DNA from: Bacteroidales bacterium
GTDB taxonomy: Bacteria; Bacteroidota; Bacteroidia; Bacteroidales; UBA932
Direction of reading: 5' to 3'
Assembly (NCBI GenBank): GCA_016284265.1
Contig: JAEEOM010000053.1
Coordinates: 1-45,520, forward strand
DNA: 45,520 nt
The position numbers and the translations under genes are program-made. How positions within the stretch are numbered: the stretch's first letter is position 1; each line of letters starts with the position of its first letter. The notes under the pieces are model-generated. The model was not told the origin of the DNA, ran no database searches, and saw only the letters and a list, made by a program, of their open reading frames with translations. Shown here one piece after another: positions 8,808 through 36,721 of this stretch.

Positions 8808-10187
8808 CTAGTTATCCGCCACTAAGGGCGGAAGGACTTCACAGACCACGAAGTTGCTACCGCCGATGAAGATCAGATCCCGCGCGCCGGCGAGGGATTC
8901 TGCGGTCTGGAGGGCCTCCGGGACGCTGAAGGCGACGCGGCCGTTCAAGCCGCAGTCGGCCATTGCGTTGGCTAAATCGACGGCCGGCAGGGCGCGAGGG
9001 CTGGAGGCCTGCGTCCAGATGTAATGGACATTGCGCGGCAGCAGCGGAGCAATGGCGTCGATGTCTTTCTCCCGCGCGAGTCCCAGAATGAAAAAGACAT
9101 TTTCGTAGTCGCAGGAGATGCGGTCCACCTGCTCGGCCACCCAGCGGAGGCCGTGGGCATTGTGACCTGTGTCGCAGATGATCTGCGCCTTCCCGGCGGC
9201 CGGGTCGGCCGCGCGGAGCGTCTCCCAGCGGCCGTGCAGGCCGGTCCGGCGGGCCGCCTGGCGAACGCCGCTGCGGAAGGCCGCCAGATTCAGGCCGAGC
9301 ATCGGCTGCAGGACACCGACGGCGGCCGAAAGCGTGCAAAGATTGCGCTGCTGATAGTCGCCCGGCAGATCGAGATCGGCAACAGCAAGGCCAAGACAAT
9401 CAGGCGTATCCTGAGCGAAGACCAGGGCAGATGTATGAGATCCCCGGGCAAGTCGGGGGTGACGGGAACCGTCATTCCCGGCCTGACCAACTCCGTCATT
9501 CCCGGCCTGACCGAGAATCTCGAGGCCGCAGGCAGCGGCCTTCGCCTCAAATACCGGCCGTGTCTCGGGCAGATATTCCCCGATGACTGCCGGCACGCAC
9601 GGCTTGATGATGCCGGCTTTCTCCCCCGCGATGGCCTCGAGCGTATAGCCCAGATGTTCGCAATGCTCCAGGCCGATATTGGTAATGATGCTCAGGATGG
9701 GCGTAATGACGTTGGTCGAGTCGAGCCGGCCGCCGAGGCCGGTTTCAATGACGGCGATGTCCACCGTTTCGGCTGCAAAAAAGTCGAAGGCCATCCCGGT
9801 CGTGATTTCGAAAAAAGACGGCTTTTCTGCCTCGAAGAAGCCTTGCCAGTGGTCGAGGAAAGCCTCGACAAACTCCTTCGGGACCATCCGGAAGGAATCC
9901 CCTTCCACGATCTTCATCCGCTCCCGGAAATCCACCAGATGCGGCGAGGTATAAAGACCCACTTTCAACCCACAAGCCGCCAGGCCTGCCGCAAGCATAT
10001 GACTTGTCGAGCCTTTTCCGTTGGTCCCGGCAATATGCACGGAGCGGAATTTCCGATGCGGATGACCGAGCCCCTCATCGAACGCCTCCATCGTCTCAAT
10101 CCCCGGCTTGTAGGCCACCTTCCCCACCTTCTGGTAGGACGGGAACTGGTTGAACAGCCAATTGATCTTTTCTTCGTATGTCTTCAT
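8808..10187 (-). CDS. folC: folylpolyglutamate/dihydrofolate synthase with in-frame repeat insertion
   Basis: 459 aa. FolC is a cytoplasmic ATP-dependent ligase that adds glutamate to folates and, in bifunctional forms, to dihydropteroate. Seen: the P-loop AGTNGKGSTSHML (GTNGKGST, residues 54-61), LYTSPHLVDFRERM, AVIETGLGGRLDSTNV, ITNIGLEHCEHLG, GEKAGIIKP, and in the C-terminal domain GLHGRWE and DTGHNAHGLRW. The usual length is about 420-435 aa. The excess is largely explained by residues of about 226-251, where two GQAGNDG heptads are encoded by tandem copies of a dispersed nucleotide repeat; the frame stays open through it. It lies in a linker ahead of the C-terminal ligase domain, so the enzyme may remain active (inference). 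Start at ATG 10187 gives the normal family N-terminus. No clear promoter was seen. Confidence 0.92.
   Translation of the reverse strand: MKTYEEKINWLFNQFPSYQKVGKVAYKPGIETMEAFDEGLGHPHRKFRSVHIAGTNGKGSTSHMLAAGLAACGLKVGLYTSPHLVDFRERMKIVEGDSFRMVPKEFVEAFLDHWQGFFEAEKPSFFEITTGMAFDFFAAETVDIAVIETGLGGRLDSTNVITPILSIITNIGLEHCEHLGYTLEAIAGEKAGIIKPCVPAVIGEYLPETRPVFEAKAAACGLEILGQAGNDGVGQAGNDGSRHPRLARGSHTSALVFAQDTPDCLGLAVADLDLPGDYQQRNLCTLSAAVGVLQPMLGLNLAAFRSGVRQAARRTGLHGRWETLRAADPAAGKAQIICDTGHNAHGLRWVAEQVDRISCDYENVFFILGLAREKDIDAIAPLLPRNVHYIWTQASSPRALPAVDLANAMADCGLNGRVAFSVPEALQTAESLAGARDLIFIGGSNFVVCEVLPPLVADN
9437..9512. repeat. tandem palindromic repeat inserted in folC frame
   Basis: On the plus strand there are two identical 20-mers, CCGTCATTCCCGGCCTGACC, at 9469-9488 and 9493-9512 (period 24). 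They are preceded at 9437-9465 by a diverged unit starting GAGATCCCCGGGCAAG and ending GTGACGG. The same unit family is seen at 16176-16250 and 36693-36721. In the folC frame each copy reads GQAGNDG. Confidence 0.85.
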
Positions 10188-10241
10188 GGTTCAACATTTT
10201 TTGCGCTGCAACGGACGCACCTGAATGACAGCTACTTACGT

Positions 10242-10276
10242 AATGTGATCCCCCTCGTTTTGAGGGGGATCACATT
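10242..10276. terminator. perfect 15-bp hairpin between pgm and folC
   Basis: AATGTGATCCCCCTC (10242-10256) pairs perfectly with 10262-10276 across a 5-nt loop GTTTT. It lies about 70 nt downstream of the phosphohexomutase stop and upstream of folC. A U-tract is missing, so it is either a terminator of Bacteroidota style or another palindromic repeat. The rest of 10188-10343 shows no gene and no clear promoter. Confidence 0.5.
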
Positions 10277-10343
10277 TCATAAAACACTGACAATCAAATG
10301 CGTACATTGCAGGCGTTTTTCAAGCCCGGAGGCAAGAGAGCCG

Positions 10344-11996
10344 CTAAGCGGAGAACTGTTCGCGCAGGGCGGCGTTGCGGGCGTCGGCGTTGGCACCGCA
10401 GGCGCTGAAGTAGAACTTGATCTTCGGCTCGGTACCGGAAGGACGAACCGTCACCTTGCAACCGTCTTCGCTGAAGAACTGCAGGACGTTCGACTTCGGA
10501 AGACCCGTCTTGTCGGGTTCGTTGTAATCGATGACTTTCACCACCGGCGAGCCGGCCAGCTCCTTGGGCGGCGTGGCGCGGAAGTCCACCATCATCTGCT
10601 GGATCTGTTCGATGCCGTCCTTGCCTTTCTTCGTGACGGAAATCAGGCTTTCCTTGTAGTAGCCATATTCGGCATAGATCTCCTGCAGATAGCCATAGAG
10701 CGTCTGGCCGCGGTCGGCCAGCCAGGCAGCGCATTCGCAAAGGGTGCAGCAGGTGATCACGGAGTCTTTGTCACGCACGAAACTGCCCACGTTGAAACCG
10801 TTGCTCTCCTCGCCGCCGCAGATGAAAGTCTTCTGGCCTTCAAACCGATGCTGGAGTTCTGCGATATACTTGAAACCGGTCAGGACATCGAATGACTCGA
10901 CGCCGTATTTGGCGCAGATCTTCTTCAGCAGGTCGGTCGTGACGATGGTCTTGACAAAGAACTGCTTGCCGTCAAGTTTGCCCAGTTCATGCCAGCGCGT
11001 CAGGAGGTAGCTTGTGACGAGCGTGGCAATCTGGTTGCCGGTCAGCAGAATCAGTTGGCCTTCGTTGTTCCGGATGGCACATCCTACGCGGTCGGCATCC
11101 GGGTCAGTACCCAGCGCGATATCGGCTCCGACTTCATCGGCACGCTCCATGACCATGCGCATGGCCGTAGGTTCCTCCGGATTCGGTGAAACGACGGTCG
11201 GGAAGTTGCCGTCACTCACGTCCTGGTCGTCCACATGATAGACATTCGTGAAGCCGGCCTGCTTGAGTCCGGCAGGGACCAGTCGGACACCGGTGCCGTG
11301 AAGCGGCGTGTAAGCGATCTTGATGTCGCGGTGCCGTGCAATGCTGTCGGGCGAGAGGAGCAGTGAGAGCTGGCTGTCGAGGAACGCCTTGTCCACCTCA
11401 GCGCCGATACCCTGCGGATAGGCATTCTCGTCAATTTTGACCTGATCCATCGATGTGATCTTGTTCACTTCGGCAATGATATTCTTGTCGTGCGGTGCGA
11501 TGATCTGGGCGCCGTCCTCCCAGAACACTTTATAACCGTTGTATTCCTTGGGATTGTGCGAGGCAGTGATCATGATGCCCGCCTTGCATTTCAGGTAGCG
11601 GATGGCAAAGCTGAGTTCCGGCGTGGGGCGGATGTTGTCGAAAATGAAAACATCGATACCGTTGGCCATCAGCACGGCGGCCGAAACCCGGGCAAAAAGC
11701 TGGCTGTTGTTGCGGCTGTCGTAGGAGATGACGGCAGATATCTTCTCACCCGTGAAATTCTTCTTGAGATAATTGGCCAGTCCCTGCGTGGCCATTGAGA
11801 CGGTGTAGCGGTTCATGCGGTTGGTGCCCGCGCCCATGACGCCGCGCAAGCCGCCCGTGCCGAACTCGAGGGTGCGGTAGAAAGCATCTTCCAAAGCTTT
11901 CGGATCGCCTTTCATCATTTCCAGCACTTCCCGCTGGGTTTCCAGATCGTAACTGTTGCTGAGCCAAGTTTTGGCCACGTCGAGATAGTTTGCCAT
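10344..11996 (-). CDS. phosphoglucomutase/phosphomannomutase-type phosphohexomutase
   Basis: 550 aa of the alpha-D-phosphohexomutase superfamily, cytoplasmic, interconverting hexose-1- and hexose-6-phosphates for glycogen, nucleotide-sugar and glycolytic use. Domain marks in order: FGTGGLRG near residue 47, the phosphoserine loop TASHNPKEYN (Ser146), the metal loop TDPDADRVG, the sugar-specificity loop GGEESNGF, and the phosphate-binding loop RPSGTEPKIKFY near the C-terminus. The length and GGEESNGF resemble the long PgcA-like phosphoglucomutase group, so glucose specificity is likely. ATG 11996 is preceded by a -7 box at 12017-12024. It is divergent from the methyltransferase gene. Confidence 0.93.
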   Translation of the reverse strand: MANYLDVAKTWLSNSYDLETQREVLEMMKGDPKALEDAFYRTLEFGTGGLRGVMGAGTNRMNRYTVSMATQGLANYLKKNFTGEKISAVISYDSRNNSQLFARVSAAVLMANGIDVFIFDNIRPTPELSFAIRYLKCKAGIMITASHNPKEYNGYKVFWEDGAQIIAPHDKNIIAEVNKITSMDQVKIDENAYPQGIGAEVDKAFLDSQLSLLLSPDSIARHRDIKIAYTPLHGTGVRLVPAGLKQAGFTNVYHVDDQDVSDGNFPTVVSPNPEEPTAMRMVMERADEVGADIALGTDPDADRVGCAIRNNEGQLILLTGNQIATLVTSYLLTRWHELGKLDGKQFFVKTIVTTDLLKKICAKYGVESFDVLTGFKYIAELQHRFEGQKTFICGGEESNGFNVGSFVRDKDSVITCCTLCECAAWLADRGQTLYGYLQEIYAEYGYYKESLISVTKKGKDGIEQIQQMMVDFRATPPKELAGSPVVKVIDYNEPDKTGLPKSNVLQFFSEDGCKVTVRPSGTEPKIKFYFSACGANADARNAALREQFSA

Positions 11997-12016
11997 AGAT
12001 TTGAACGTTTAACTTT

Positions 12017-12024
12017 CAAAGATA
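12017..12024 (-). promoter_or_regulatory. -7 box for the phosphohexomutase gene
   Basis: Minus-strand TATCTTTG fits TAnnTTTG, about 20 nt before the start codon at 11996. No -33 TTTG at the right distance. Confidence 0.45.
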
Positions 12025-12046
12025 GGAAAAAAAGTGGTAAAAGTGT

Positions 12047-12054
12047 TATATTTG
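12047..12054 (+). promoter_or_regulatory. -7 box immediately before the methyltransferase start
   Basis: TATATTTG fits TAnnTTTG. The ATG at 12062 begins only 7 nt after the box, so the transcript may be leaderless or nearly so. Confidence 0.45.
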
Positions 12055-12061
12055 TAGAGTT

Positions 12062-13228
12062 ATGTCGGAAGAAAAATACATCCTTTTCCTGCAGGAACAC
12101 GAGAACGACGACCCGGAAAGGTTGTTGCTGTCCGCGGCCCGCTGGCCCGGAATCGACGTGCGTCGCGCAGCCCGGAATATCCAGGCGCGCCGGAAGATGC
12201 GGGAAAAGGTTCCTTTCTGGCATGCGCATCCGAAACTCGAGTATCCCGGTTCGCTTCCGCTGGAGCAGTGCAGCTCTGAAATCACGGCCCGCTACAAACA
12301 GGATTTCGTCCCCAATGGAAGTCGTGTCGCAGACCTGACGGGCGGGCTCGGCGTGGACAGTTGGGCACTGGCGCAGCGGGCTTCGGAAATGCATTATTGC
12401 GAGCGGAATCCGGAATTGTGTGCAGCAGCCCGGCATAATTTCGCGGTCCTTGATGTCCCAATCCAGGTGCATGAAGGCGACGGCCTGGCCTGGCTGCGCG
12501 AGATGCCCGGACGTTTTGACCTGATCTACCTGGATCCGGCCCGGCGCGACCGGACGGCCCGGCGGGTGTACGACATCGCCGATTGCGAACCCGATCTGCT
12601 GGCCGTCAAAACAGACTTGCTAAACAGGGCCGGCCGTGTGCTGGCCAAGATTTCCCCGATGGCCGATATCTCCCGCACCTTGGGGCAATTCCCCGAAACC
12701 CGGGCATTGCACGTAGTCACAGTGGGCGGTGAGGTCAAAGAGTTGCTTCTGCTGCTAGAACCAGGACCTTCTCCCACTGAACCGTTGCTCGTGGCCGTCG
12801 ACGGCCCGCACCGGCTGGCCTTCCGCCCTTCCGAAGAGCCGGCCGCTGCCGTACACTACACGGAAAGCATCGGCCGCTATCTTTTCCAGCCTTCGAAAGC
12901 CTTGCTCAAGGCAGGCGCCTTCCGCTTGCTCTCCGAACGTTTCGGTATAGCCAAACTGGCGCCGAGCACCCATCTATATACCTCCGACGAAACGGTGCCG
13001 GAATTCCCCGGAAAGCGGTTTACCGTGGAAGCGGTTTTCGACTGGAACAAGGCTTCGATCCGCCTGCTTCAGGAACGGTTCGACCGGCTGGAGTTGACTG
13101 CGCTGAACTTTCCGCTCGGCACCGAAGCGCTCCGCGCCCGCCTGGGCATCGCCGCCGGCGGCGACCGCCATCTCTTCGCCGCCACCCTGTCAGACAAGAG
13201 AAAACAATTGATACTTTGCCAACCATGA
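12062..13228 (+). CDS. class I SAM-dependent methyltransferase with THUMP-like C-terminal domain
   Basis: 388 aa, soluble. Helical N-terminal region (about 1-85), then a Rossmann-type methyltransferase core with motif I VADLTGGLGVDSWALA (about residues 94-109), an acidic turn YCERNPELC and the motif DLIYLDPARRD, which resembles the catalytic DPPY/DPAR motif of nucleic-acid methylases. The C-terminal part (about 290-388, with HLYTSDE and GKRFTVEAVFDWN) resembles the THUMP-like domain found with such enzymes in Bacteroidota. An RNA target is likely but not shown. The next gene overlaps by ATGA, so the two are translationally coupled. Confidence 0.8.
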   Translation: MSEEKYILFLQEHENDDPERLLLSAARWPGIDVRRAARNIQARRKMREKVPFWHAHPKLEYPGSLPLEQCSSEITARYKQDFVPNGSRVADLTGGLGVDSWALAQRASEMHYCERNPELCAAARHNFAVLDVPIQVHEGDGLAWLREMPGRFDLIYLDPARRDRTARRVYDIADCEPDLLAVKTDLLNRAGRVLAKISPMADISRTLGQFPETRALHVVTVGGEVKELLLLLEPGPSPTEPLLVAVDGPHRLAFRPSEEPAAAVHYTESIGRYLFQPSKALLKAGAFRLLSERFGIAKLAPSTHLYTSDETVPEFPGKRFTVEAVFDWNKASIRLLQERFDRLELTALNFPLGTEALRARLGIAAGGDRHLFAATLSDKRKQLILCQP

Positions 13229-14373
13229 GAGAGAACTACACCGAGATCGAAGAGCTGTACGACCTGCGGCAGCTGCTTTCCCAGACCGAGAACATCCGGC
13301 ACTACGCCTTCCAGGCGGTCAACTTCGAGAAGTGCGGATTTCCCGTCGAGAACTACCGATTCGAGGACTGCCTGTTCATGGGCTGTCACATCCCGCCGCG
13401 GATGTACTATGCCATGGACGAGAACTGCATCGTCTTTCCGCGCGTAAAGATGCCCTACAAGGTCTTCCCGAACAAGTTGTATGACGCACAGTCGCTATAC
13501 CTGCACTACAAGCCCGGCTTCCACGAGACTTTTTACACATGTTACGACACGATCTGCTACGAGCGATTCATGGCGCTGGGCAAAGAAACTAACGACATCA
13601 AGGAAACGCTCTGCCGCACACTCCACGATCACTCGATCTCCAATGCCCTCGACCAGTTTATCCGGCAATACGATGAGAAAGATATCGTAGCCGTCATGGG
13701 CGGCCATGCCGTCAAGCGGACTGACGCGTCTTACCGACAGATCGTGGAGATCAGCAAGCGGCTCACCGAGATCGGCAAGCTGATGGTCAGCGGCGGTGGC
13801 CCCGGCGCTATGGAAGCCGTCCACCTGGGCGCGTGGATGGCCGGACGCGACGAGGCGGAAGTGGCCGACGCCCTCGAAATAATCAGTGTTTCGCCCACCT
13901 TCCGCGATCCGGGCTGGCTCACGCATGCCTTCGAGGTAATGGAGAAGTACCCGCACGACGGACAGTACCACAGCCTCGGCATCCCTACCTGGTTCTACGG
14001 CCACGAGCCTGCCACACCGTTCGCCACGGAGATCGCCAAATATTTCGACAACAGCATTCGCGAGAATTATATCATCTCTATCCCCAAAGGAGGCATCATC
14101 TACACGCCGGGCAGCGCCGGCACGTTCCAGGAAATCTTCCAGGATGCCGCGCAGAACCACTATGAGACCTTGGGTTACGCCAGCCCGATGGTTTTCCTGG
14201 GCACACAATACTACACTGAAGAGACGCCCATCTATCCGCTGTTGGAGGACCTGCAGGCGCGGGGAAAATACAAGAACCTGCTGCTTAAAATCACCGACAG
14301 CACCGCCGATGTCATCCGTTATCTGATGGATTTCCACCGCCCGTACCATCCCTGGTCCGGCGACATTGCCTAG
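13225..14373 (+). CDS. LOG-family Rossmann-fold nucleotide-binding protein
   Basis: 382 aa. The C-terminal two thirds hold the LOG/TIGR00730-type fold: AVMGGHAVKRTD, VSGGGPGAMEAVHLGAWMAG (from about residue 188) and PGSAGTFQEIFQDAAQNHYE (from about 295), the last a variant of the PGGxGTxxE motif of cytokinin-activating phosphoribohydrolases. The N-terminal 150 residues (FQAVNFEKCGF, FEDCLFMGC) slightly resemble pentapeptide repeats and belong to this longer subfamily. Nucleotide 5'-monophosphate hydrolysis is possible; the true substrate is unknown. The TTG at 13216 is in frame, but ATG 13225, overlapping the upstream stop as ATGA, is the better start. The ABC exporter begins 7 nt after the stop. 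Confidence 0.85.
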   Translation: MRENYTEIEELYDLRQLLSQTENIRHYAFQAVNFEKCGFPVENYRFEDCLFMGCHIPPRMYYAMDENCIVFPRVKMPYKVFPNKLYDAQSLYLHYKPGFHETFYTCYDTICYERFMALGKETNDIKETLCRTLHDHSISNALDQFIRQYDEKDIVAVMGGHAVKRTDASYRQIVEISKRLTEIGKLMVSGGGPGAMEAVHLGAWMAGRDEAEVADALEIISVSPTFRDPGWLTHAFEVMEKYPHDGQYHSLGIPTWFYGHEPATPFATEIAKYFDNSIRENYIISIPKGGIIYTPGSAGTFQEIFQDAAQNHYETLGYASPMVFLGTQYYTEETPIYPLLEDLQARGKYKNLLLKITDSTADVIRYLMDFHRPYHPWSGDIA

Positions 14374-14380
14374 ACAAAGT

Positions 14381-16177
14381 ATGAACCTTTTCCAACTCTT
14401 CAAGAACATACGGCCCTTTGTCAAGCCATATCGCTGGCTGGTTGTCATCACCCTCATCCTGACGCTGGTGGGGTCCCTGATGGCCCAGGTCAACGCCATC
14501 GTACTCGACCGTACTGTCGACGCCATCAACGCCCTGATCGGCACCGATTTCACCTGGCCGCAGGCCGCCCGCATCATGACCATCATCTCCATCGTCCTGC
14601 TGGGCAAGGAGATCCTGTCAGCCCTGATTACCTTCGCGCAGAACTACTACGGCGAGCGGATGCGCATCTTCGTGTCGCGCGACCTCTCGCAGGCCGTGGT
14701 CGAGAAGGTGCTGACGTTCCGGATGGCCTATTTCAACAGCGACGAGAACGCCACCGGCAAGGTGCAGGCGCGTATCGACCAGGGTGTCAGCAGCCTGTCG
14801 CGAACGGTGCAGAATTTCTTCATCGACCTGTTGCCCCTGTTTTCCACCGCCATCCTGGCCTTGATCCTGATGTTTGCCGCCAACGTGTACGTGGGTCTCG
14901 TCGCCCTGGGCATCGTCCCGGTCTATTTCTGGATCACGTACCGGCAGGCCCGGCGTCTGAAGGGCTGGCGGCGCGAGATGCGCGGCCATCTGGAAGCCAA
15001 GAGCCAGGGCATCAAGAACATCATCGATTCGATCAACGTCATCAAGAGTTTCAACCGCGAGAAGATCGAGGCGGGCAAGCAGCTCGACATCCAGAACCAG
15101 GTGACGGAGAACCAGATGAAGACCCGTAAAGTCGCCTTTTATTACAATGGCCTGAAAAGCTTCGTGCGGCAGGTCGGTACGGTGCTGGTCATCATCCTGA
15201 CGGCTTATCTGGTCTTGAAGGAGTATCCCGGCATGACGATCGGTAAGATCATGTACCACGTCATGCTCTTCAGCAACGTCATCGCCCCGATCACACAGCT
15301 GCAGCGCATCTTCGACGATGTGAACGACGCGCTGATCTACGCCGAGGGCTTCTTCGGCATCCTGAACTCCGAGAAGGAAGTCGAGCCTACGGGCGAATAC
15401 AAGCCCGAGAAGATCCACGGCAAGTTCGAACTCCAGCACGTGGACTTCACCTATCCCAACGGCAACCAGGCGCTCTTCGACGTGAACATGACCATCGAGC
15501 CGGGCAAGATTACGGCGCTGGTGGGCCTCTCGGGCGCCGGCAAGAGCACCATCGTGAACCTGCTCGACAAGTTCTACGAGCCGCAGACCGGCCGCATCCT
15601 GCTCGACGGGGTGGACCTCCGCGAGTACGACACGAAGTACCTGCGCGACAACATCGGCCTGGTGCTGCAGAAAAACCATATCTTCGACGGGACCATCGAG
15701 GAGAACATCCTCTACGGCAATCCGAACGCCACGCACGAGGAGGTGGTGGAGGCGGCCAGGAAGTCGTTCCTCTACGACCAGATCATGGAACTGCCGAAGA
15801 AGTTCGAGAACAAGGCTTCCGACCTCTCAGGCGGCCAGCAGCAACGCGTGGCCATCGCCCGCATGTTCCTCAAGAATCCGCCCATCATCTTCCTCGACGA
15901 GCCCACGGCCAGTCTCGACGCCATTGCCACCGAGCAGATCAAGAACAGCATCGACGCCATCAAGAAAGACCGCACGGTGATCATCATCTCGCACAGCATC
16001 TCCCAGATCATCGACAGCGAGATGGTCTATGCCCTGAAGACCGGCCGCGTGGAAGAATCGGGCCATCCCGACGAAGTTTACAAGAAAGGCGGTATCTACA
16101 AGGATATCATCGACGCTTCGGCGCGCAGCCTCAACATCCAGAAAATCGCCCGGACCATCGAGGGTTCGGGCGATTGA
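14381..16177 (+). CDS. ABC exporter half-transporter (TMD-NBD fusion)
   Basis: 598 aa, inner membrane. The N-terminal half has about six membrane helices (e.g. WLVVITLILTLVGSLMA, FSTAILALILMFAANVYVG, VLVIILTAYLVL). The nucleotide-binding half has the Walker A GLSGAGKST (382-390), Q-loop VLQKNHIFDGTIEENILYG, signature LSGGQQQR, Walker B IIFLDEPTASLD and H-loop IIISHS, all intact. This is the MsbA/lipid-and-multidrug exporter type; the substrate cannot be told, and one other half or a homodimer is needed. Start ATG 14381 lies 7 nt after the LOG gene; an in-frame TTG at 14366 would overlap it and is less likely. The stop TGA overlaps the first bases of the repeat at 16176. Confidence 0.92.
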   Translation: MNLFQLFKNIRPFVKPYRWLVVITLILTLVGSLMAQVNAIVLDRTVDAINALIGTDFTWPQAARIMTIISIVLLGKEILSALITFAQNYYGERMRIFVSRDLSQAVVEKVLTFRMAYFNSDENATGKVQARIDQGVSSLSRTVQNFFIDLLPLFSTAILALILMFAANVYVGLVALGIVPVYFWITYRQARRLKGWRREMRGHLEAKSQGIKNIIDSINVIKSFNREKIEAGKQLDIQNQVTENQMKTRKVAFYYNGLKSFVRQVGTVLVIILTAYLVLKEYPGMTIGKIMYHVMLFSNVIAPITQLQRIFDDVNDALIYAEGFFGILNSEKEVEPTGEYKPEKIHGKFELQHVDFTYPNGNQALFDVNMTIEPGKITALVGLSGAGKSTIVNLLDKFYEPQTGRILLDGVDLREYDTKYLRDNIGLVLQKNHIFDGTIEENILYGNPNATHEEVVEAARKSFLYDQIMELPKKFENKASDLSGGQQQRVAIARMFLKNPPIIFLDEPTASLDAIATEQIKNSIDAIKKDRTVIIISHSISQIIDSEMVYALKTGRVEESGHPDEVYKKGGIYKDIIDASARSLNIQKIARTIEGSGD

Positions 16178-16250
16178 GATGCCCGGTCAAGCCGGGCATG
16201 ACGGAAAGGTCAAGCCGGGCATGACGGAAAGGTCAGGCCGAAGGCATGAC
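16176..16250. repeat. three tandem palindromic units in convergent intergenic gap
   Basis: After a leading GAGATGCCC come units starting GGTCAAGCCGGGCATGACGG at 16185 and 16208 (identical, period 23) and a diverged third, GGTCAGGCCGAAGGCATGAC, at 16231. Each contains a GCC(C)GG/CCGGGC palindrome. It fills the 82-bp gap between the ABC exporter and the S9 peptidase genes, and may act as a bidirectional terminator. Same family as 9437-9512 and 36693-36721. Confidence 0.9.
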
Positions 16251-16259
16251 ACAGGGGAA

Positions 16260-18368
16260 CTATTTCTTCTTGAAATAATCGAAGAGGACGTCCGGCAGGG
16301 GCTGCTCCAATAAATAGCGATACCAGAACTTGTAGTCCTGGAGAGAGGAGTGCATCCCCTGGTCGCCCCGGTAGCCATGCATGCCGTCGGGGTAGATCAT
16401 CAGTTCAAAGTCCTTGTGATCCTTCTCCAGCCGGTCGATCAGTTGGAGGGAATTCTGGAAGTGGACGTTGTCGTCACCTGTGCCATGGGTGATGCGGAGC
16501 ATGTTGGTGGCATCACCGCGATAAGGGCCGACCCGGTCGATGACGCGGGATTTCGCATAGCCTTCGGGATTGTCCTGCGGGCGGTCCATGTAGCGTTCCC
16601 CGTAGTGGGTGTCGTACAGTTCCCAGTCATAGACGCCGCCACCTGCGATGCCGTACTGGAAATGTTCGTTGCCTTCCGTGACGCAGAGCGTGGTCATCGT
16701 GCCTCCGAACGAGAATCCTTCGACGCCGATCTTGTTTTCATTGACAAAAGGCATCTTGCGGAAATGGTCGATGCCGTCGCAGAAATCCTGAAGTTCCAGT
16801 ACGCCCAAATAGCGGTACATCGCCTCTACGCCTTTCTTGCCATAGTGGCCGCCAGCGCGGTTGTCGAGCGTAACCTGAACCACACCATGGTTGGCCCACC
16901 ACTGGCTGGCCATCGAAAGGCCACGCCAGCCTTCCCGGACCTGCGGATTGTCGGGTCCGCCATAGATATTGACTTTCACGGGATAGCGTTTGTTCTTGTC
17001 GAAATCGACCGGCCAGGTCACCGCAGCGGGGATTTTCACGCCGTCGCGCATGGTGACATACACCACTTCCGGCAAGGCAATGGCGTAGTCGTCGAACTTC
17101 TCCCCTTTCGAATCATAGACTACGCGGACATGCTTGGCGGGATCCACATCGCCCTTGGCCGGCACCGTGATATAGACCAGTTGCGTCGGGGTACGGTAGT
17201 TCGAGAGCAGTGCGGCCACAGCCTTGCCATCTTCCGAGATCTGCACGCCCGCGAAATTGTACGGGCCGTAAGAGAGACGCTGCACCGTCTTTTCACGCAA
17301 GTCCAGCCGGTAGATATCCACACGCGTGGTCGCTTGGCGCTTCGCCGTAAAGAAGAGCTGCTTCTTGTCCACCTTCAGCAGAGAAATGCTCCAGTTGTGT
17401 CCGGCGGTCAGCTGCTCGAACGTCTTTCCGTCGTACGACAGGAAATAGATCTGCTGCCAGCCCGTGAAATCCCGGACGATATAAACGCCTTCCTTCGTAA
17501 AGAGCATGTTGTCCATCCAGTCGATCCAGGAATCCTGGTGTTCCTGGTACACCAGCACCTTGGCGCCGGTCTGCGGCGTCACGGAATAGAGACGGAAATT
17601 ATCTTGCGCCCGATCCATCCAGCTGACCATCAGTTGCTTGCCATCACCACTCCAGAACGGTGTGCCGAAATACTGGTCCTCTTTCGGATCAAAATCAGCC
17701 CAGACGGTCTCCCCGCCCGCAACCGAGACGAAGCCCAGCTTCACTTCGGGATTCGGATCGCCCGTCTTGGGATAGCGCGTCTGGTTGAGCGAGCCATGCT
17801 TGCCTTTGGGCGAATAGATGGGGAACATCGGCACCTGGGAATTGTCGAACCGGTAATAGGCGATCACCTTGCTGTCGGGAGACCACCAGAAAGCCCGGTA
17901 CATCGACGGACGGCCGAAGATCTCCTCATAATAGACCCAGGAGGCATAGCCGTTCAGAATCAGGTCGCTGCCATCATACGTATGCCGCACGATATGGCGG
18001 GAATGGACATCGATGGAATACAGGTCGTTGCCCAACGTGTATGCAATCTTCGTCGAGTCGGGCGACCAGGTGGGATTGACCCAGCCCGGCACCAGGTTCT
18101 CCATGTTCGCGGCTTTGAGGCGCGGTTTCTGCGGAACGGGCGCCGCCACGCCTGTCTTGGGTGACCAGGCAAAACGGTCGCGGCCCACGGAATAAATCAG
18201 GGCCCCGTCGTCCGTGATTTCCATCGGGAACGGGGCTTGCTTGACAATCCCTGCGGGGAAAGCGTTCAACAATTCCGCTTCAGTAAAGCGTTTTCCGGAA
18301 AGGGCACTTTGGCCCTGAACCGACAACACCGGCAGGAGCGCCAGTGCGACGAGCAGGATGCGTTTCAT
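16260..18368 (-). CDS. dipeptidyl peptidase IV-type S9 serine peptidase
   Basis: 702 aa with a Sec signal (MKRILLVALALLPVLSVQGQS), so it is periplasmic or surface-located. The N-terminal part is a beta-propeller of the DPPIV_N kind (WSPDSTKIAYTLGNDLY, FWWSPDSKVIAYYRFD), followed by an alpha/beta hydrolase domain. Catalytic triad visible: nucleophile in GFSFGG (Ser553), Asp632 in GTGDDNVHFQ, and His664 in DGMHGY. The family cleaves X-Pro or X-Ala dipeptides from peptide N-termini; in gut and oral Bacteroidales it supports peptide use. An upstream extension of the frame to 18764 overlaps the next gene and lacks a signal, so ATG 18368 is used. The zinc peptidase gene ends 8 nt upstream. Confidence 0.93.
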   Translation of the reverse strand: MKRILLVALALLPVLSVQGQSALSGKRFTEAELLNAFPAGIVKQAPFPMEITDDGALIYSVGRDRFAWSPKTGVAAPVPQKPRLKAANMENLVPGWVNPTWSPDSTKIAYTLGNDLYSIDVHSRHIVRHTYDGSDLILNGYASWVYYEEIFGRPSMYRAFWWSPDSKVIAYYRFDNSQVPMFPIYSPKGKHGSLNQTRYPKTGDPNPEVKLGFVSVAGGETVWADFDPKEDQYFGTPFWSGDGKQLMVSWMDRAQDNFRLYSVTPQTGAKVLVYQEHQDSWIDWMDNMLFTKEGVYIVRDFTGWQQIYFLSYDGKTFEQLTAGHNWSISLLKVDKKQLFFTAKRQATTRVDIYRLDLREKTVQRLSYGPYNFAGVQISEDGKAVAALLSNYRTPTQLVYITVPAKGDVDPAKHVRVVYDSKGEKFDDYAIALPEVVYVTMRDGVKIPAAVTWPVDFDKNKRYPVKVNIYGGPDNPQVREGWRGLSMASQWWANHGVVQVTLDNRAGGHYGKKGVEAMYRYLGVLELQDFCDGIDHFRKMPFVNENKIGVEGFSFGGTMTTLCVTEGNEHFQYGIAGGGVYDWELYDTHYGERYMDRPQDNPEGYAKSRVIDRVGPYRGDATNMLRITHGTGDDNVHFQNSLQLIDRLEKDHKDFELMIYPDGMHGYRGDQGMHSSLQDYKFWYRYLLEQPLPDVLFDYFKKK

Positions 18369-18376
18369 GAGGATGC

Positions 18377-19048
18377 TTATTTTCTTCCGGTAAAAATGGA
18401 CAGATAATAGATGAGCGTCGCCAGCGAACTGAGTGCCCCCACCACATACGTGTATGCCGCAGCCCGGAGAGCGCCGCGGGCTTCTTCCTCGTTCGACGGA
18501 TCGATGATGTCGGTCCGGCTGAGCCAGGCGAGCGCCCGACGGCTCGCGTCGATTTCGACGGGAAGCGTGACGAAACTGAAGAGCGTGGAGAAAGCGAACA
18601 TCGCGATGCCCAGCCACATGATCTGCGGGAAAATGTTGATCAGCAACATGCCGCCCAACAACACGAAAGGAACGAGCCGGGAAGTGATTGACACCACAGG
18701 GACAAGGGCCGAACGGACCTTCACCGGGAAATAGCCCTGGGCATGCTGCACCGCATGACCGCACTCATGGGCCGCCACGGCCGCCGCCGCCACGCTGGTC
18801 TCGCCATAGACTGCCTGACTGAGGTTGACCGTCTTGTTGGTCGGGTTGAAATTATCGGTCAGCTGTCCCGGCGTGGAAGTGACCTTCACGTCATGAATGC
18901 CATGTTCCGCGAGCATCCGGACAGCCACTTCCCGTCCGGTCATACCGCCCAACAGCGGCACTTCCGATGCCTGCCGGAATTTTTTCTGAAAAGAGGCCTG
19001 CACCACATAACTGAGCACGGCAACTCCAATGAATAGGATCCAGTACAT
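18377..19048 (-). CDS. membrane zinc metallopeptidase (YugP-like, Zn_peptidase_2)
   Basis: 223 aa. One N-terminal helix (YWILFIGVAVLSYVVQASF), then a cytoplasm- or periplasm-facing peptidase segment with the zinc motif AAHECGHAVQHAQGY (HExxH variant HECGH), two central helices (LVPFVLLGGMLLINIF, IMWLGIAMFAFSTLFSFV), the conserved LPVEIDASRRAL and a last helix near the C-terminus. This is the full length of the family, whose physiological substrate is poorly known; a role in membrane protein quality control is only inference. It lies upstream of and close to the S9 peptidase gene, probably one transcript. A weak -7-like TATCTTTA lies at 19076-19083. Confidence 0.88.
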   Translation of the reverse strand: MYWILFIGVAVLSYVVQASFQKKFRQASEVPLLGGMTGREVAVRMLAEHGIHDVKVTSTPGQLTDNFNPTNKTVNLSQAVYGETSVAAAAVAAHECGHAVQHAQGYFPVKVRSALVPVVSITSRLVPFVLLGGMLLINIFPQIMWLGIAMFAFSTLFSFVTLPVEIDASRRALAWLSRTDIIDPSNEEEARGALRAAAYTYVVGALSSLATLIYYLSIFTGRK

Positions 19049-19286: not shown

Positions 19287-19295
19287 CGAAACGCC

Positions 19296-25714: not shown

Positions 25715-25723
25715 CACGTTTGA

Positions 25724-26755
<1,032 letters not shown>

Positions 26756-26775
26756 TCCGGCGACAGTGCTTTTTA

Positions 26776-26807
26776 AAAACGCAGAGTCAACGCTCTGCGT
26801 TTTTTTT
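26776..26807 (+). terminator. rho-independent terminator of gap
   Basis: AAAACGCAGAG (26776-26786), loop TCAACG, complement to 26803, then a run of T to 26807. Stem of 11 bp plus U-tract, 20 nt after the gap stop. The clearest intrinsic terminator in the window. Confidence 0.85.
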
Positions 26808-26809
26808 GT

Positions 26810-26817
26810 TATATTTG
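26810..26817 (+). promoter_or_regulatory. -7 box for the 5'-nucleotidase-type gene
   Basis: TATATTTG fits TAnnTTTG, directly after the gap terminator and 18 nt before ATG 26836. Confidence 0.5.
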
Positions 26818-26835
26818 TCCAACAAACTGTCAGTT

Positions 26836-28452: not shown

Positions 28453-28463
28453 TCCAACGAACG

Positions 28464-28603
28464 GCGAGCTCCGCGTGCAGGAGGTACGAGCGGAAAAACC
28501 ATGGCCGCCCGTGGCCATGTGAACGGGAGGGGCCCAAGCTTGCTTGGGAGGGATGAAGCGAAGCGGAAGTTTTTCCGCCGTACCTCCTGCACGCGGAGCT
28601 CGC
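28464..28603. repeat. 140-bp structured palindrome between convergent genes
   Basis: Outer arms 28464-28499 and 28569-28603 pair over 35 bp with one bulged A (28489). Inside lie two further perfect stems: CATGGCC/GGCCATG (28500-28506, 28513-28519) and CCCAAGC/GCTTGGG (28533-28539, 28542-28548). The predicted form is a cruciform with two side hairpins. No reading frame. It may terminate both flanking genes, or be a MITE-like or REP-like mobile element. Confidence 0.9.
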
Positions 28604-28611
28604 GCCAGCGT

Positions 28612-29286
28612 CTATTTCAATAGATTGGGGCGGAGGAGTTTGGTGCGGGCGAGGGCTTGTTCGTCCTGCCAGGCCGCGATTTTCTTCGGATCTCCCGAGA
28701 GCAGCACGTCAGGGACTTTCCAGCCGTTGAATTCGGCCGGACGGGTATAGACGGGCGGTGCGAGCAGACCGTCCTGGAACGAATCGGAGAGCGCCGACGT
28801 CTCGTCGCCGAGTGCGCCCGGCAGCAGCCGGACGACCGCGTCGGTCAGGATGGCGGCGGGCAGTTCGCCGCCGCTGAGCACATAGTCACCCACTGTGATT
28901 TCCCGCGTGATCAGATGTTCCCGGATGCGATGGTCGATTCCCTTGTAGTGGCCGCAGAGAATCATCAGGTTTTCTTTGCATGAGAGTTCGTTGGCCACCT
29001 GCTGTGTCAGATACTCCCCGTCGGGCGAAGTGAAGATGATCTCGTCGTAATCGCGTTCCGCCTTCAGCTTCTCCATCAGCGTATAGACCGGCTCGATCAT
29101 CATCACCATGCCGGCGTCGCCGCCGAAACTGTAATCATCCACCTGCCGGTACCGTCCTTTGCCGTATTCACGCAGGTTGTGGACATGGATTTCAACGAGC
29201 CCTTTGTCTTGGGCCCGTTTGACGATGGAATAGCCGAGCGGGCTCTCCAGCAGCTCCGGTACGACTGTCAGGATATCGATTCTCAT
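28612..29286 (-). CDS. trmD: tRNA (guanine-37-N1) methyltransferase
   Basis: 224 aa, SPOUT-class methyltransferase forming m1G37 in tRNA, which prevents +1 frameshifts. Seen: [30 protein letters not shown], the knot residues [34 protein letters not shown] and [16 protein letters not shown]. Slightly short of the E. coli protein but typical for Bacteroidota. ATG 29286 gives the family N-terminus; the frame open to 29514 would run antisense into the DUF349 gene and is rejected. Confidence 0.95.
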
Positions 29287-29294
29287 AAGCAGTG

Positions 29295-29302
29295 CAAAAT
29301 TA
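29295..29302 (-). promoter_or_regulatory. possible -7 box for trmD
   Basis: Minus-strand TAATTTTG fits TAnnTTTG. Its distance of 8 nt to ATG 29286 implies an almost leaderless transcript, so it is uncertain. Confidence 0.3.
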
Positions 29303-29324
29303 GCGATTATTTCCAAAAAAAGAC

Positions 29325-29332
29325 TATATTTG
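29325..29332 (+). promoter_or_regulatory. -7 box for the DUF349-yidC operon
   Basis: TATATTTG fits TAnnTTTG; leader of about 20 nt to ATG 29360. It shows that in-frame starts before 29333 are not used. Confidence 0.5.
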
Positions 29333-29359
29333 CAAGCTACAACTAAAAGTGTAAAAGTC

Positions 29360-31180: not shown

Positions 31181-31192
31181 TCCGACGAGGAG

Positions 31193-33055: not shown

Positions 33056-33058
33056 GCC

Positions 33059-33706
33059 ATGTCCATCGCATCCGCCATCCAACAATTGAGAAACGAACTG
33101 CCATCAACCGTCCAGTTGGTGGCAGTTTCCAAATTCAAGCCCGTTTCCGACATTCTCGAGGCATACCGGGCCGGCCAGCGGGCCTTCGGCGAAAACCGGC
33201 CGCAGGAATTGGCCGCCAAAGCCCGGGAGCTGCCCGCCGACATCCAGTGGCACTTCATCGGCCACCTGCAGACCAACAAGGTCAAGATGGTCGTTCCCTA
33301 TGCCACGCTGATCCATTCAGTCGATTCTGAGCGCCTGCTCGCCGAAATCGACAAGACCGCCCGCAACCTGGGCCGGACCGTGGATATCCTGCTGGAAATA
33401 CACATCGCCGAAGAGGCCACCAAGCAGGGACTTTCCCCCGATGAGGCCGAGTCACTGGCCGGACGAATGGCCGAGTTCCCGAATGTCCGCCTGCGCGGCG
33501 TCATGGGAATGGCTACTTTCACCGATGATACCGATCAGGTCCGGCGCGAATTCCGCGTGCTGAAAGCCCTTTCCGGGCGACTGTCAACCCGCTTCCCCGA
33601 CTGCGACCAGATTTCGATGGGCATGTCGGAAGACTGGCCGGTCGCTGTCGAGGAAGGCACGACAATTGTTAGGATTGGAACATTCATTTTTGGCAAAAGA
33701 AATTGA
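33059..33706 (+). CDS. YggS-family PLP-binding protein
   Basis: 215 aa, single-domain TIM-barrel PLP protein of the COG0325 family, which maintains PLP homeostasis and has no established catalytic activity. Seen: VAVSKFKP with the PLP lysine Lys25, AFGENRPQEL, WHFIGHLQTNKVK, IHSVDSERL, LRGVMGMATF, ISMGMSEDWPVAVEEGTTIVRIGTFIFG. All family hallmarks are present. Starts 3 nt after yidC, so in the same transcript. Confidence 0.94.
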   Translation: MSIASAIQQLRNELPSTVQLVAVSKFKPVSDILEAYRAGQRAFGENRPQELAAKARELPADIQWHFIGHLQTNKVKMVVPYATLIHSVDSERLLAEIDKTARNLGRTVDILLEIHIAEEATKQGLSPDEAESLAGRMAEFPNVRLRGVMGMATFTDDTDQVRREFRVLKALSGRLSTRFPDCDQISMGMSEDWPVAVEEGTTIVRIGTFIFGKRN

Positions 33707-33711
33707 AGCAT

Positions 33712-34449
33712 ATGAAAAAGTTTATCTTCATTCTCCTGACGGTTCTTGCAGCCGTCGCCTGCCGTAAGGTATCGCTGGAAGATCGGATTGGCCAGATTGC
33801 CAAGTACAGCACCAAAAATCCCGACACCTACCTTGAGAATCTGCAGCGGCACGAAGCGGAAAAGCGCATCGACTATCTCACGCTGACGCTGGCAAAAGAG
33901 CTCAAGGCTGAGGACATTTGGTCGCTGGAAAGCGCAGGAGGCAGTTCGCTGGTCGCCGAGTTTCCCGGCAAATCGAAGAAACAGACCCAGTTCTCCCTGC
34001 TCACCGCCTCGCTTGAGGATCCCGAAGCCTGTGCCGTGGTCCTGGGCGCGCTTAAAACACTCAAAGACCTGAAAATCAAGCCCAAAGAAACCATACGTGC
34101 CCTCTTCTACAATCCTGTGGTAGATACGGCCGGCCTAAACGGGCTGAGCACCGTGTACATGGAACTCTATGAATCCGGGGAACTGGTTACCTTTGAACTC
34201 GAAGTCTCTTCCCGCGATACACTTCCGGTCCATACCTTCCGCATTGAAGAGAAACCGGCGTTTGCAGAGAAAATCGTAGAAGTGATTCCGCCCTACCTGG
34301 CTCCGCTGGGTGAATTCCGCTTTGAACGTGGTAAATATCCGAACAAGGAGTGGCCGGTAAAAGCTTCCGTTTACCGCTATCAACTCGATCCGGCAGACAT
34401 CGCCAAAGAGTCGGCCGTCGTGGCCGCCTTCGCCTATCTGGTCAACTAG
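33712..34449 (+). CDS. lipoprotein resembling a catalytically dead M28 peptidase
   Basis: 245 aa with a lipoprotein signal (MKKFIFILLTVLAAVAC). I do not recognise it as a characterised protein. The middle (SLVAEFPGKSKKQTQFSLLT, about 80-100; ACAVVLGALKTLKDLKIKPK, about 108-130; ETIRALFYNPV) follows the order of an M28 aminopeptidase core (NVIAxxxG, HxDS, GxxVLLExARxL, RTIRFxxxxxEE), but the metal-binding His, second Asp and Glu pair are not there. This is inference from pattern, to be tested by structure prediction. Start ATG 33712 lies 5 nt after the YggS-type gene. Its stop shares the palindrome CTAG with the stop of tamL on the other strand. Confidence 0.7.
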   Translation: MKKFIFILLTVLAAVACRKVSLEDRIGQIAKYSTKNPDTYLENLQRHEAEKRIDYLTLTLAKELKAEDIWSLESAGGSSLVAEFPGKSKKQTQFSLLTASLEDPEACAVVLGALKTLKDLKIKPKETIRALFYNPVVDTAGLNGLSTVYMELYESGELVTFELEVSSRDTLPVHTFRIEEKPAFAEKIVEVIPPYLAPLGEFRFERGKYPNKEWPVKASVYRYQLDPADIAKESAVVAAFAYLVN

Positions 34450-36668
34450 AACGGATAACCGATACCGAAGTGGAGGGCACTGCCCCCCGTAAACCAATCA
34501 TTGATTCCCTTCCATTCCTGTACACTCGGATCGTAGAGCTGCAGGCCGAGGTCGAATCGCACCAGAATCAAGCCGAAATCGAGGCGCAGGCCGAATCCCC
34601 AGTCCAGGGCCATGCTCCGCGCCAGATCACTGAATGAGAAGAGGCTCCGTGGATCTCGCGAAACCCCGTCCAGATCGGCGCGGGCGATATTCCACACATT
34701 ACCAGCCTCCAGGAAAAGTGCTCCCTGAAGTTTCGACAGGATGGGGAAACGGAATTCGGCATCTGCCTCCAGGTGCATGTCGCCCGACTGATTGATAATC
34801 TTGAAGCTGGTATCGCGCGGTGCCATGCCCGGGCCCACTGCCCGTGCCCGCCAGCCACGCATACTGCCTGCCCCGCCGGCATAGAAGAGCTTCTCAAAAG
34901 GAAGGGAGATGGAGTTTCCATAAGAAACGCCCAATCCAGCCAAACCACGCAAAGCCAACGCGAACTGGTTTTCCTTTCCCAGCCGGAGTGTCTCCACGAC
35001 CTGGAGTTCTCCCCGCACATACTGGGAATATGGAAGGCCGAAAATGGTCCGATCCTTGGATCCACGCCCCTCCGATTTCAGGAGGTTACTGACCAGATTG
35101 GCCATATTGCCCGACACATCGAACTGAAAGCGGGTATAAAAGTAGGTGGTCTTCGGATTCACCGTGGCATTGGTGGTATAATAGAACATGCCTCCGCCAC
35201 CCAGGTCGAGGTGGCTTCGGAAGGAATTCTTCAGATAGGGGTCAGCAATTCCTCCGTAAAAATCTTCTTCAATGCGCGACGTCTGTACCGCGCTCAACTG
35301 GATGGGATAGATCTGGTAAAAGAAATGCTTGTCCACGTTCCAGCTGAAACCATAAGTGCCTGTGACGACATTCCGGGTATATTCCGGACGGTCCTGGAAA
35401 CTGTAGGAGAAATTGACATCCATCTGCGGAAGGTTAAGCCGGGGCATCTTCCAGACAAAGGCGGGGTACCACGGGATGCGCAATCCTGTCGAAACGGAAA
35501 ACTCGTTGGCACGCACCGGGGCGCTGAGCATGAACTGGAAGTTGCCGCGGAAGCCCAGCGAGAAAACCTCTCCCCCGCCGAAAAGGTTCTTGTGACTGTA
35601 GGACAGGGATGGTGTCACGCCGAAAAGCCCGGTGGAATTGAAGGAACCTTCAAGATTGACCTTCACGGACTGGAGACGGGCCTGCTGCAGCAGGATACGG
35701 CAATCTACCGCTGTCGAATCAGCCTCATTTTCCCGGAGCATCATGTTGACGCTGCTGAAGAGCGGAATACTGGCAAAGCGGTCATAGGTCCGGTTGATGC
35801 GCTCTTCACTGTAAGGTTCTCCAGGCGTGAGCTGGTTCAAGTTATGCAGGAAGTTCTGGCGGACGTGCATGCCCGGCTGCGGGATCAGGGCCACATTGCC
35901 AATCTTGTACTTTCGATGTTCCCGGGCGGACTCCTCGCTTTCGTTGCGGGTGTAGTTCTCGATGGCCATGATCAGGGACGCTGTGTCACGGACTGTGGAG
36001 GTATCGGCGTAGAAAAAGAAATAGTTCTTGGAGAACCCCCAATAACCGTTGTTCCGGAAATGCCGGGCCAGCCGTTCGCTCTCTCTTTCAAGGGATACTT
36101 CTGCCAGCGGATCTCCGGGACGAACCGTGAAATGGGCAGAATCAGCCGCCATCAGGGCAGCCAGTGCGGTATCGCGGACCCGGTAGGTGATGTCGGAGAT
36201 CGGGAAGCGCTTGCCCAGCGTCACATCGTACTGCACCTTGGCGATCTTCTTGCGGATTTTGGCGGAAGGCTCGATGGAGGAATCGTACCAGCCGTCGTAC
36301 TTCAAGTGGTCGAGCATACTCGTAACGGACTCTTCCACCAGCCCTTCATCAAACAGGACCGGTGGCTGCCCGACTTTCTGACAGAAGCGGTCCCATCCCC
36401 CGCCCTTCCCGTTCTGCCAGTTATAGACATAGAGCAGCGGGCTCACCATCCCCAGGAAGCCGCTGTTGGGCTTTTGCTTGATATAGGGTTCCAACGAGGA
36501 GGCATTGTATGGGTCGTCTTTTCTGGCCCCTGCGACAATGGTAACTTTATTGTCGGCCAACCGGGCTTCATCATCGGCCAGGACACGCGTGGTCGAGCAA
36601 CCGGCCAGCCCCAGTCCCGAAAGGACGGCCAGCAGCAGAAGTCCGATCCACGTTGTTGTCTTTGTCAT
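34446..36668 (-). CDS. tamL: TamL-type BamA-family outer-membrane lipoprotein
   Basis: 740 aa. N-terminus is a lipoprotein signal (TWIGLLLLAVLSGLGLAGC), which marks TamL, the Bacteroidota lipoprotein form of TamA, over BamA itself. POTRA-like region follows (about 40-330: LADNKVTIVAG, FPISDITYRVRDT, RNNGYWGFSKNYFFFYAD, FASIPLFSSVNMML), then a beta-barrel with the Omp85 motif GGAGSMRGWRARAVGPG and a final aromatic, GIGYPF. It probably works with a TamB protein, not in the window, in outer-membrane assembly. An in-frame TTG at 36677 is rejected because it lies inside the -7 box. Convergent with the upstream-numbered lipoprotein gene, 4-nt overlap at the ends. Confidence 0.88.
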   Translation of the reverse strand: MTKTTTWIGLLLLAVLSGLGLAGCSTTRVLADDEARLADNKVTIVAGARKDDPYNASSLEPYIKQKPNSGFLGMVSPLLYVYNWQNGKGGGWDRFCQKVGQPPVLFDEGLVEESVTSMLDHLKYDGWYDSSIEPSAKIRKKIAKVQYDVTLGKRFPISDITYRVRDTALAALMAADSAHFTVRPGDPLAEVSLERESERLARHFRNNGYWGFSKNYFFFYADTSTVRDTASLIMAIENYTRNESEESAREHRKYKIGNVALIPQPGMHVRQNFLHNLNQLTPGEPYSEERINRTYDRFASIPLFSSVNMMLRENEADSTAVDCRILLQQARLQSVKVNLEGSFNSTGLFGVTPSLSYSHKNLFGGGEVFSLGFRGNFQFMLSAPVRANEFSVSTGLRIPWYPAFVWKMPRLNLPQMDVNFSYSFQDRPEYTRNVVTGTYGFSWNVDKHFFYQIYPIQLSAVQTSRIEEDFYGGIADPYLKNSFRSHLDLGGGGMFYYTTNATVNPKTTYFYTRFQFDVSGNMANLVSNLLKSEGRGSKDRTIFGLPYSQYVRGELQVVETLRLGKENQFALALRGLAGLGVSYGNSISLPFEKLFYAGGAGSMRGWRARAVGPGMAPRDTSFKIINQSGDMHLEADAEFRFPILSKLQGALFLEAGNVWNIARADLDGVSRDPRSLFSFSDLARSMALDWGFGLRLDFGLILVRFDLGLQLYDPSVQEWKGINDWFTGGSALHFGIGYPF

Positions 36669-36674
36669 AACTGA

Positions 36675-36682
36675 CAAATATA
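36675..36682 (-). promoter_or_regulatory. -7 box for tamL
   Basis: Minus-strand TATATTTG fits TAnnTTTG and ends 6 nt before ATG 36668, so the mRNA would be leaderless or nearly so. The region where a -33 box should be is occupied by the repeat at 36693-36721. Confidence 0.45.
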
Positions 36683-36692
36683 CAAAAAAATT

Positions 36693-36721
36693 CCGTCATC
36701 TCCGGTTTGACCGGGCATCTC
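36693..36721. repeat. palindromic unit at the trmH-family 3' end
   Basis: A 29-nt copy of the GAGATGCCCGGTCAA...ATGACGG unit on the minus strand, differing from 16176-16204 at three positions. It supplies the last codons (DARSNRR) and the stop TGA of the TrmH-family gene and abuts the tamL promoter. Confidence 0.85.

Follow-up and report, generated by a model that had tools for sequence, protein, structure and literature searches.

A CGTC-tagged palindromic repeat family in a genus of Bacteroidales differs in site and copy number among relatives and occupies open reading frames of conserved genes

Palindromes carrying an unpaired CGTC tag have been described as CGTC repetitive extragenic palindromes (CGTC-REPs) and sorted into the families CGTC-1 to CGTC-4 (Di Nocera, De Gregorio and Rocco 2013, PMC3733652). 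In the part of that survey's text available to us, the repeats are defined by the tag, a stem of 8 to 9 bp beginning with AT and a loop of 4 to 5 nt, the variants TGTC and CCTC are admitted for the unpaired tag, Bacteroidetes is among five host phyla, and no linked or CGTC-flanked transposase was found. Here we report a family of 27-nt palindromic units that lies at three loci of a 45,520-nt stretch of Bacteroidales DNA (contig JAEEOM010000053.1, hereafter the window) and is dispersed through the genome to which the window belongs (G000; 2.4 Mb in 206 contigs, 88% complete). The units have an unpaired tag, an 8-bp stem starting with AT, a 5-nt loop and a short tail, often lie within genes, have a Bacteroidetes host and have no linked transposase that we could find, all of which they have in common with the CGTC-REP superfamily as presented in that text. 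We conclude that the family is CGTC-REP by tag, stem, loop and intragenic habit, and that it is a new member of a repeat kind known at the phylum level.

A first-pass annotation of the window, which knew of no description of such elements in this lineage, thus went too far, as the 2013 paper includes Bacteroidetes. Titles and abstract openings in the open-licence PMC literature gave no report of CGTC repeats in Bacteroidales or of a CGTC mobiliser. The available text of the 2013 survey equates RPE-4 and RPE-6 with CGTC-4 and CGTC-1 of Rickettsia conorii, and to judge by description those elements are likewise CGTC-tagged palindromes in conserved genes; they belong to another phylum with another host life style, whereas copy number can be traced here across 40 species of one genus. 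Neisseria dRS3, given there as CGTC-1, is by its description also a short CGTC-tagged palindrome with clustered copies. GTAG-REPs and REPINs, which are associated with TnpA-REP (REP-associated transposase, RAYT), are likewise short, tagged, dispersed hairpins that form genome-particular sequence families, but the tag here is CGTC rather than GTAG or GTGG and no flanking transposase gene was found. The available text of the HuH survey that treats them (PMC6006769) reports REPs in frame within tnpA-REP genes, and the habit of frame-keeping insertion is therefore already known. As far as its text is available, the RepRanger paper (PMC12306157) uses a broad definition of REPs, mentions neither transposase nor RAYT, and includes three genomes from Bacteroidota (two Flavobacterium and one Thermoflavifilum), and a Porphyromonas gingivalis paper (PMC5771137) treats miniature inverted-repeat transposable elements (MITEs) and leaves short repeats unannotated.

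All three window loci hold one repeat family with a unit of CGTC + ATGCCCGG-CTTGA-CCGGGCAT + CT, that is, an unpaired CGTC tag, an 8-bp stem, the 5-nt loop CTTGA and a short CT tail; the 20-mer on which the first-pass annotation was built is only the 5′ part of it. The window contains 5 matches to the annotation's core with at most 3 mismatches, where chance would give 0.04 and none of 100 shuffles gave more than 1. To call the units near-identical was generous, as the copies at 9469 and 9493 differ from the 16-kb copies at 2 of 19 bases and the 36.7-kb copy differs at 3. Among 247 aligned units, columns flanking the 27 nt carried little information, and the tag was CGTC in 223, TGTC in 9 and CCTC in 4, the scan pattern itself having demanded TCAT. 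The tail is CT followed by a variable base, with CTC commonest (140 of 247 units), a figure partly ascertained in that up to 109 of the scanned loci had been retrieved by the exact 27-mer; CT also prevails after G000 units selected by the 5′ 20-mer. In this respect the family departs from the CGTC-REPs of the available 2013 text, which mostly end in CCA, a tail borne by 1 of our 247 units. Folded as single-stranded DNA, the consensus has an energy of −9.9 kcal/mol (z of −5), and the stem pairs at 8 of 8 positions in one of the four full window units, at 7 in one and at 6 in two.

The stem covaries. Across 63 distinct sequences among the matches listed, the six unconstrained stem columns were Watson-Crick in 320 of 378 cells; 2,000 shuffles of the 3′ arms, which ignore the relatedness that inflates such a count, averaged 182 and never exceeded 212. 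Different genomes of the genus favor different stems, with ATGCCCGG dominant in G007 and G000, ATTCCCGG in G036 and ATGCCGGG in G004. We conclude that the hairpin is what is conserved and that its sequence varies genome by genome.

To count copies irrespective of the stem, a strict pattern (GTCAT-N6-CTTGA-N6-ATCT) was used in which tag, loop and tail are fixed and six stem positions per side are free. With at most 3 mismatches allowed, the core matches G000 at 96 places and the reversed control at 2; strict copies in G000 number 37. Within the genus, strict copies range from 0 to 80 per genome and occur in 24 of 40 genomes (control, 0), with 80 in G023, 73 in G007, 45 in G026, 38 in G015, 30 in G032 and 10 in G022; per-genome counts are approximate because the genomes are incomplete and because misbinning is possible for contig C105 of G000 and for part of G033. 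Around prmC, C105 is 92 to 94% like G036 and G033, and G036 and G033 are 99% alike, against about 80 to 86% at the other loci compared; contig C2 of G033 resembles G004, at 97% over one 5.1-kb stretch. These patterns of C105 and G033 probably reflect mixed bins or recent exchange.

In a phylogenetic tree of FolC, which covers 29 of the 40 genomes and leaves out 11 (copy-rich G026 and G008 among them), 15 genomes with 0 to 80 strict copies form one clade, all but G034 having at least 4, and a branch with support of 1.000 parts this clade from 14 genomes with 0 to 5. A looser search of relatives found a match in 42 of 61 genomes; every genome with more than 10 matches belonged to the genus of G000, and 10 variant copies were present in one genome from another family. 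Across sampled genomes of the order, the strict pattern occurred at least once in 25 of 295 including G000 (24 of the 294 others), eight of the other positive genomes having 6 to 30 copies and sixteen having 1 to 3, with stems that include ATTGCGGG, ATCCCGCA and ATGGCGGG; the reversed control gave 0 except for one match each in three genomes. The exact 27-mer was found in at least 109 stretches of GTDB species genomes, and the 80 listed are all titled Bacteroidales, Bacteroidia or, in one case, Rikenellaceae, any animal named being a ruminant. The first-pass annotation had proposed a dispersed palindromic REP-type family copied to new sites and had asked for a search of the genome and its relatives; the roughly 100 copies in G000 and the large differences in number between relatives bear the proposal out, and further copies are neither few in the genome nor fixed at the same sites across the order. 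A scan of viral stretches from IMG/VR (L404 to L506) fixed only 14 bases and gave mostly chance matches; in 19 of 120 stretches, 21 matches combine the frame of tag, loop and tail with 5 or more of 6 stem pairs, and phages or proviruses may therefore carry such units.

Comparison of filled and empty sites, also suggested by the first-pass annotation, indicated polymorphism at FolC, at PrmC and in the gap between an ATP-binding cassette (ABC) transporter gene and a dipeptidyl peptidase (DPP) IV-like gene. When 30 FolC loci were aligned, G036 and G007 each had one in-frame unit at the place where G000 has three, G015 and G018 had other inserts at that site, and the remaining 25 had none. The inserts of G015 (L082) and G018 (L085) themselves seem to contain inverted repeats. 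Two in-frame hot spots are present in PrmC; the unit that precedes the motif ALDELATGRPLQY is translated as RHARLDRAS and the one that follows IIDDLY as VMPGLTGHL. Among 31 PrmC sequences judged by eye, one of which is partial and lacks either site, each hot spot was clearly filled in seven, some had degenerate or unrelated inserts and the rest were empty. The ABC/DPP gap was compared in four genomes, those with no more than 160 bp between the ends of the aligned ABC gene and the DPP gene, and was filled in G000 (an array) and G001 (one unit with a different stem) and short and free of units in G004 and G033; G023 gave only a partial ABC alignment, and elsewhere the neighbor differs or falls beyond the DNA compared. 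No clean nucleotide-level insertion between genomes was found, as no pair was close enough, including the closest usable one, G004 against G033 contig C2. In a permease-like gene, different palindromes occupy the same place, G033 having a unit where G004 has tandem copies of another CGTC-type repeat, GTCATYCTGAGCGNAGCGAAGRATCT (L377:4302-4445 and L383:11220-11282); a second G004/G033 candidate (L375) was dropped because it lies within another repeat. Direct repeats flanking 149 single units were about as in shuffles and indicated no general target duplication, a feature that would be expected of MITEs.

Units interrupt conserved genes without closing their frames. In G000, 14 genes contain a unit that lies within a domain or is flanked on each side by sequence supported by Pfam or an orthologue: FolC, two copies of prmC, MutS2, a GH43 enzyme, a RimO/MiaB-like enzyme, an Exo_endo_phos_3 protein, a HemN-like protein, an ABC-F protein, CutC, IleRS, a MacB-like permease, an FAD-oxidase/CCG protein and an altronate-dehydratase-like protein. 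The Pfam test was applied to 30 unit-containing open reading frames (ORFs), eight of which had no Pfam match, and additionally to FolC and the PrmC of contig C105, the PrmC of contig C28 being placed by alignment. UvrB and a polyprenyl synthetase were removed from the intragenic count as the unit precedes the probable start codon in each, and RluD-like, AddB-like, OstA-like, MqnC-like, GDSL/SASA and RapZ-like ORFs were excluded for one-sided support. The peptides EMPGQAGHD, VMPGLTGHL and RHSRLDRES indicate that units are read in different frames. Within the window, the folC frame is open across its three units, about 28 codons (amino acids 223 to 251). Among GTDB loci (L203, L234, L269, L214, L209, L218 and L251), units lie within ORFs resembling UvrA, the DNA ligase LigA, AroB and a U32 peptidase, names given by eye from the sequence; the available text of the 2013 survey (PMC3733652) also has repair genes among those that bear units.

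Many units stand in tandem arrays that repeat tag, 5′ arm and loop, a matching 3′ arm being present as a rule only in the last unit, and the spacers differ from array to array. By hand count, distinct steps measure 24 bp in 18 cases, 23 bp in 4, and 21 and 26 bp in one each. Within recognised genes, 7 of 7 arrays had steps divisible by 3 (the two prmC copies contribute four arrays, and FolC, GH43 and a UxaA-like gene one each), against 4 of 9 others (Fisher p = 0.034), with array classes assigned by hand and the RluD-like array of three 24-bp steps excluded as unclear. The 24-bp step in folC and the 23-bp step of the intergenic array fit selection for reading frame in genes. Moreover, both prmC arrays of C105 differ from those of the G036 and G033 copies by exactly 24 bp. 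The 16-kb array, given by the first-pass annotation as three tandem units of period 23, consists of one full unit, one exact half-unit at a 23-bp step and one diverged half-unit. The annotation also took tandem growth as a sign of active copying; copying to new sites is supported on other grounds, but since the arrays look like local 5′-half duplications with their own spacers, they point to local expansion and not to transposition. Same-strand half-unit arrays are common here, whereas the available 2013 text describes head-to-tail dimers as negligible and groups as rare except in Neisseria and Wolbachia. Where two full units lie close together, the tags are inside in 4 of 5 pairs from G000 stretches and in 13 of 21 pairs from the 80 GTDB loci listed, whereas pairs in that text are mostly head to head (tags outside).

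We consider it likely that these CGTC-tagged REPs are non-autonomous 27-nt hairpin units that are copied in trans, form arrays by slippage and are most simply viewed as parasitic. A trans-acting enzyme would recognise the tag and hairpin in single-stranded DNA, as proposed for TnpA-REP/RAYT and the GTAG-REPs, and would copy the unit to other places, after which polymerase slippage at the hairpin would duplicate tag, 5′ arm and loop in tandem. In coding sequence, the survivors would be frame-keeping, stop-free events in loops or linkers. Several observations weigh against this account. No mobilising enzyme was identified, and G034, within the copy-rich FolC clade, has no strict copy. The folC unit of G007 has an exact 7-bp flanking repeat, which a mechanism without duplication does not predict; 0.44 such repeats are expected by chance among the 149 single units. 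Ongoing transposition was not seen, the sample of one genome per species offering no same-species pair of filled and empty sites. Finally, the loss of 1 or 2 stem pairs in three of the four full window units suggests that much of the family may be decaying.

The enzyme might be a Y1 (IS200-like) protein of these genomes that moves the units from an unlinked gene, as in classical REP/RAYT systems. GTAG-REPs are thought to be mobilised by TnpA-REP, according to the available text of PMC6006769, and Y1-type genes are widespread in the genus, being detected in 27 of 40 genomes by PF01797 and in 29 by a G007 protein query, with a PF01797 match in every genome that has at least 8 strict copies except G000. 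The linked RAYT/Y1 gene for which the first-pass annotation proposed a search was nonetheless not found. A CGTC hairpin unit lay at only 1 of 30 PF01797 loci scanned to about 1.5 kb on each side, and the 2013 survey, in its available text, likewise had no CGTC-flanked transposase. In G000, which has 37 strict copies, PF01797 matched nothing and the Y1-like proteins found were all divergent; a protein without a Pfam match but with an HVH motif recognised by eye (SNHVHFII; L052:1831-2811) adjoins the unit-bearing prmC on C105, but that contig may be foreign. Nor does the occurrence of G007 Y1 homologues with at least 66% identity track copy number: they are also present in G034, which lacks strict copies, whereas copy-rich G026 and G032 show only homologues about 42% identical to the G007 protein. 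We therefore regard this explanation as unlikely. IS110 (PF02371) was rejected as a mobiliser, being matched in 3 of 40 genus genomes, one of them by a 79-amino-acid frame in G022, and not in G000. Among recurrent neighbors of the 80 listed GTDB loci, none of the 25 best-ranked clusters was transposase-like by eye and the top ones occurred at 3 loci. In sum, no linked transposase was found among Y1, IS110 or recurrent neighbors, other enzyme and nuclease families lying outside the search.

Two further explanations were considered. Selection at gene ends for functional RNA or DNA elements, such as terminators, stabilisers of mRNA 3′ ends or sites for gyrase or other proteins, would account for the strong hairpin and for the overlap with stop codons at two of three window loci, one of them between convergent genes; a few units also have a T-run behind them (2 of 25 strict units in G000 stretches). 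It is improbable, as the units also lie within the 14 conserved genes in various frames, their stem sequence varies by genome, no T-run is conserved 3′ of the unit, the window has no Rfam match, and within the genus 14 of the 29 genomes in the tree make do with 0 to 5 strict copies. Spread solely through recombination or gene conversion between old copies passed on vertically, the arrays being due to slippage, is consistent with the 24-bp differences between PrmC arrays and with a prmC region that looks recently exchanged among G036, G033 and C105. That the flanks of single units share little sequence and that most relatives have no unit at sites such as folC calls instead for insertion of little more than the unit, and we consider recombination alone very improbable.

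The features of the window are collected in Table 1. Between 9438 and 9520, folC contains two units with the exact 20-mer in common and a diverged unit on the opposite strand. The last base of the unit at 16177 to 16203 is the final base of the ABC transporter gene's stop codon, and the final codons of the SpoU methylase ORF, with its stop, lie on the reverse strand of the unit at 36694 to 36720. Other repeats in the window are an imperfect inverted repeat with two 51-nt arms (76%) at 10206 to 10312, just past the start of folC; a 34-nt inverted repeat (88%) with a 72-nt center at 28464 to 28603, a portion of one arm of which resembles a flank of the arrays on contig C81; a 28-nt inverted repeat (89%) with a 42-nt center at 38258 to 38355; and 63-bp tandem repeats at 1059 to 1373.

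Table 1. Repeat units and adjoining genes in the window
Feature	Coordinates	Strand	Remarks
folC	8808..10187	-	Mur ligase middle and C domains
Diverged full unit CGTCACCCCCGACTTGCCCGGGGATCT	9438..9464	-	6/8 stem pairs; within folC
5′ half-unit	9470..9493	+	24-bp step to next unit; within folC
Full unit CGTCATTCCCGGCCTGACCGAGAATCT	9494..9520	+	7/8 stem pairs; within folC
ABC transporter gene	14366..16177	+	Ends at array
Full consensus unit CGTCATGCCCGGCTTGACCGGGCATCT	16177..16203	-	8/8 stem pairs
Exact 5′ half-unit	16204..16226	-	23-bp step
Diverged third half-unit	16227..16250	-	Third member of the 16177-16250 array
DPP IV-like S9 peptidase	16260..18764	-	Convergent with ABC transporter gene; ends beside array
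Diverged single unit	36694..36720	+	6/8 stem pairs
SpoU rRNA methylase ORF	36696..37538	-	3′ end overlaps unit

Copying in trans could take a more specific form, which we put forward tentatively. A single-strand DNA enzyme of a new type, neither a linked RAYT nor IS110, might read CGTCAT-hairpin-ATCT regardless of the stem, be active now in one rumen Bacteroidales clade, and make the 23/24-nt half-unit arrays by abortive copying. If so, these genomes would be a natural copy-number series in which to find the CGTC mobiliser by gene content. With 0 to 80 strict copies and stems that vary by genome across 40 species genomes, the presence of a mobiliser can be tested on the gene content of sister species rich and poor in copies. 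The natural in-frame insertions in FolC, PrmC, IleRS, MutS2 and others offer a means of asking how much alteration of their linkers these enzymes tolerate, and units within genes are a caution for the annotation of uncultured gut bacteria.

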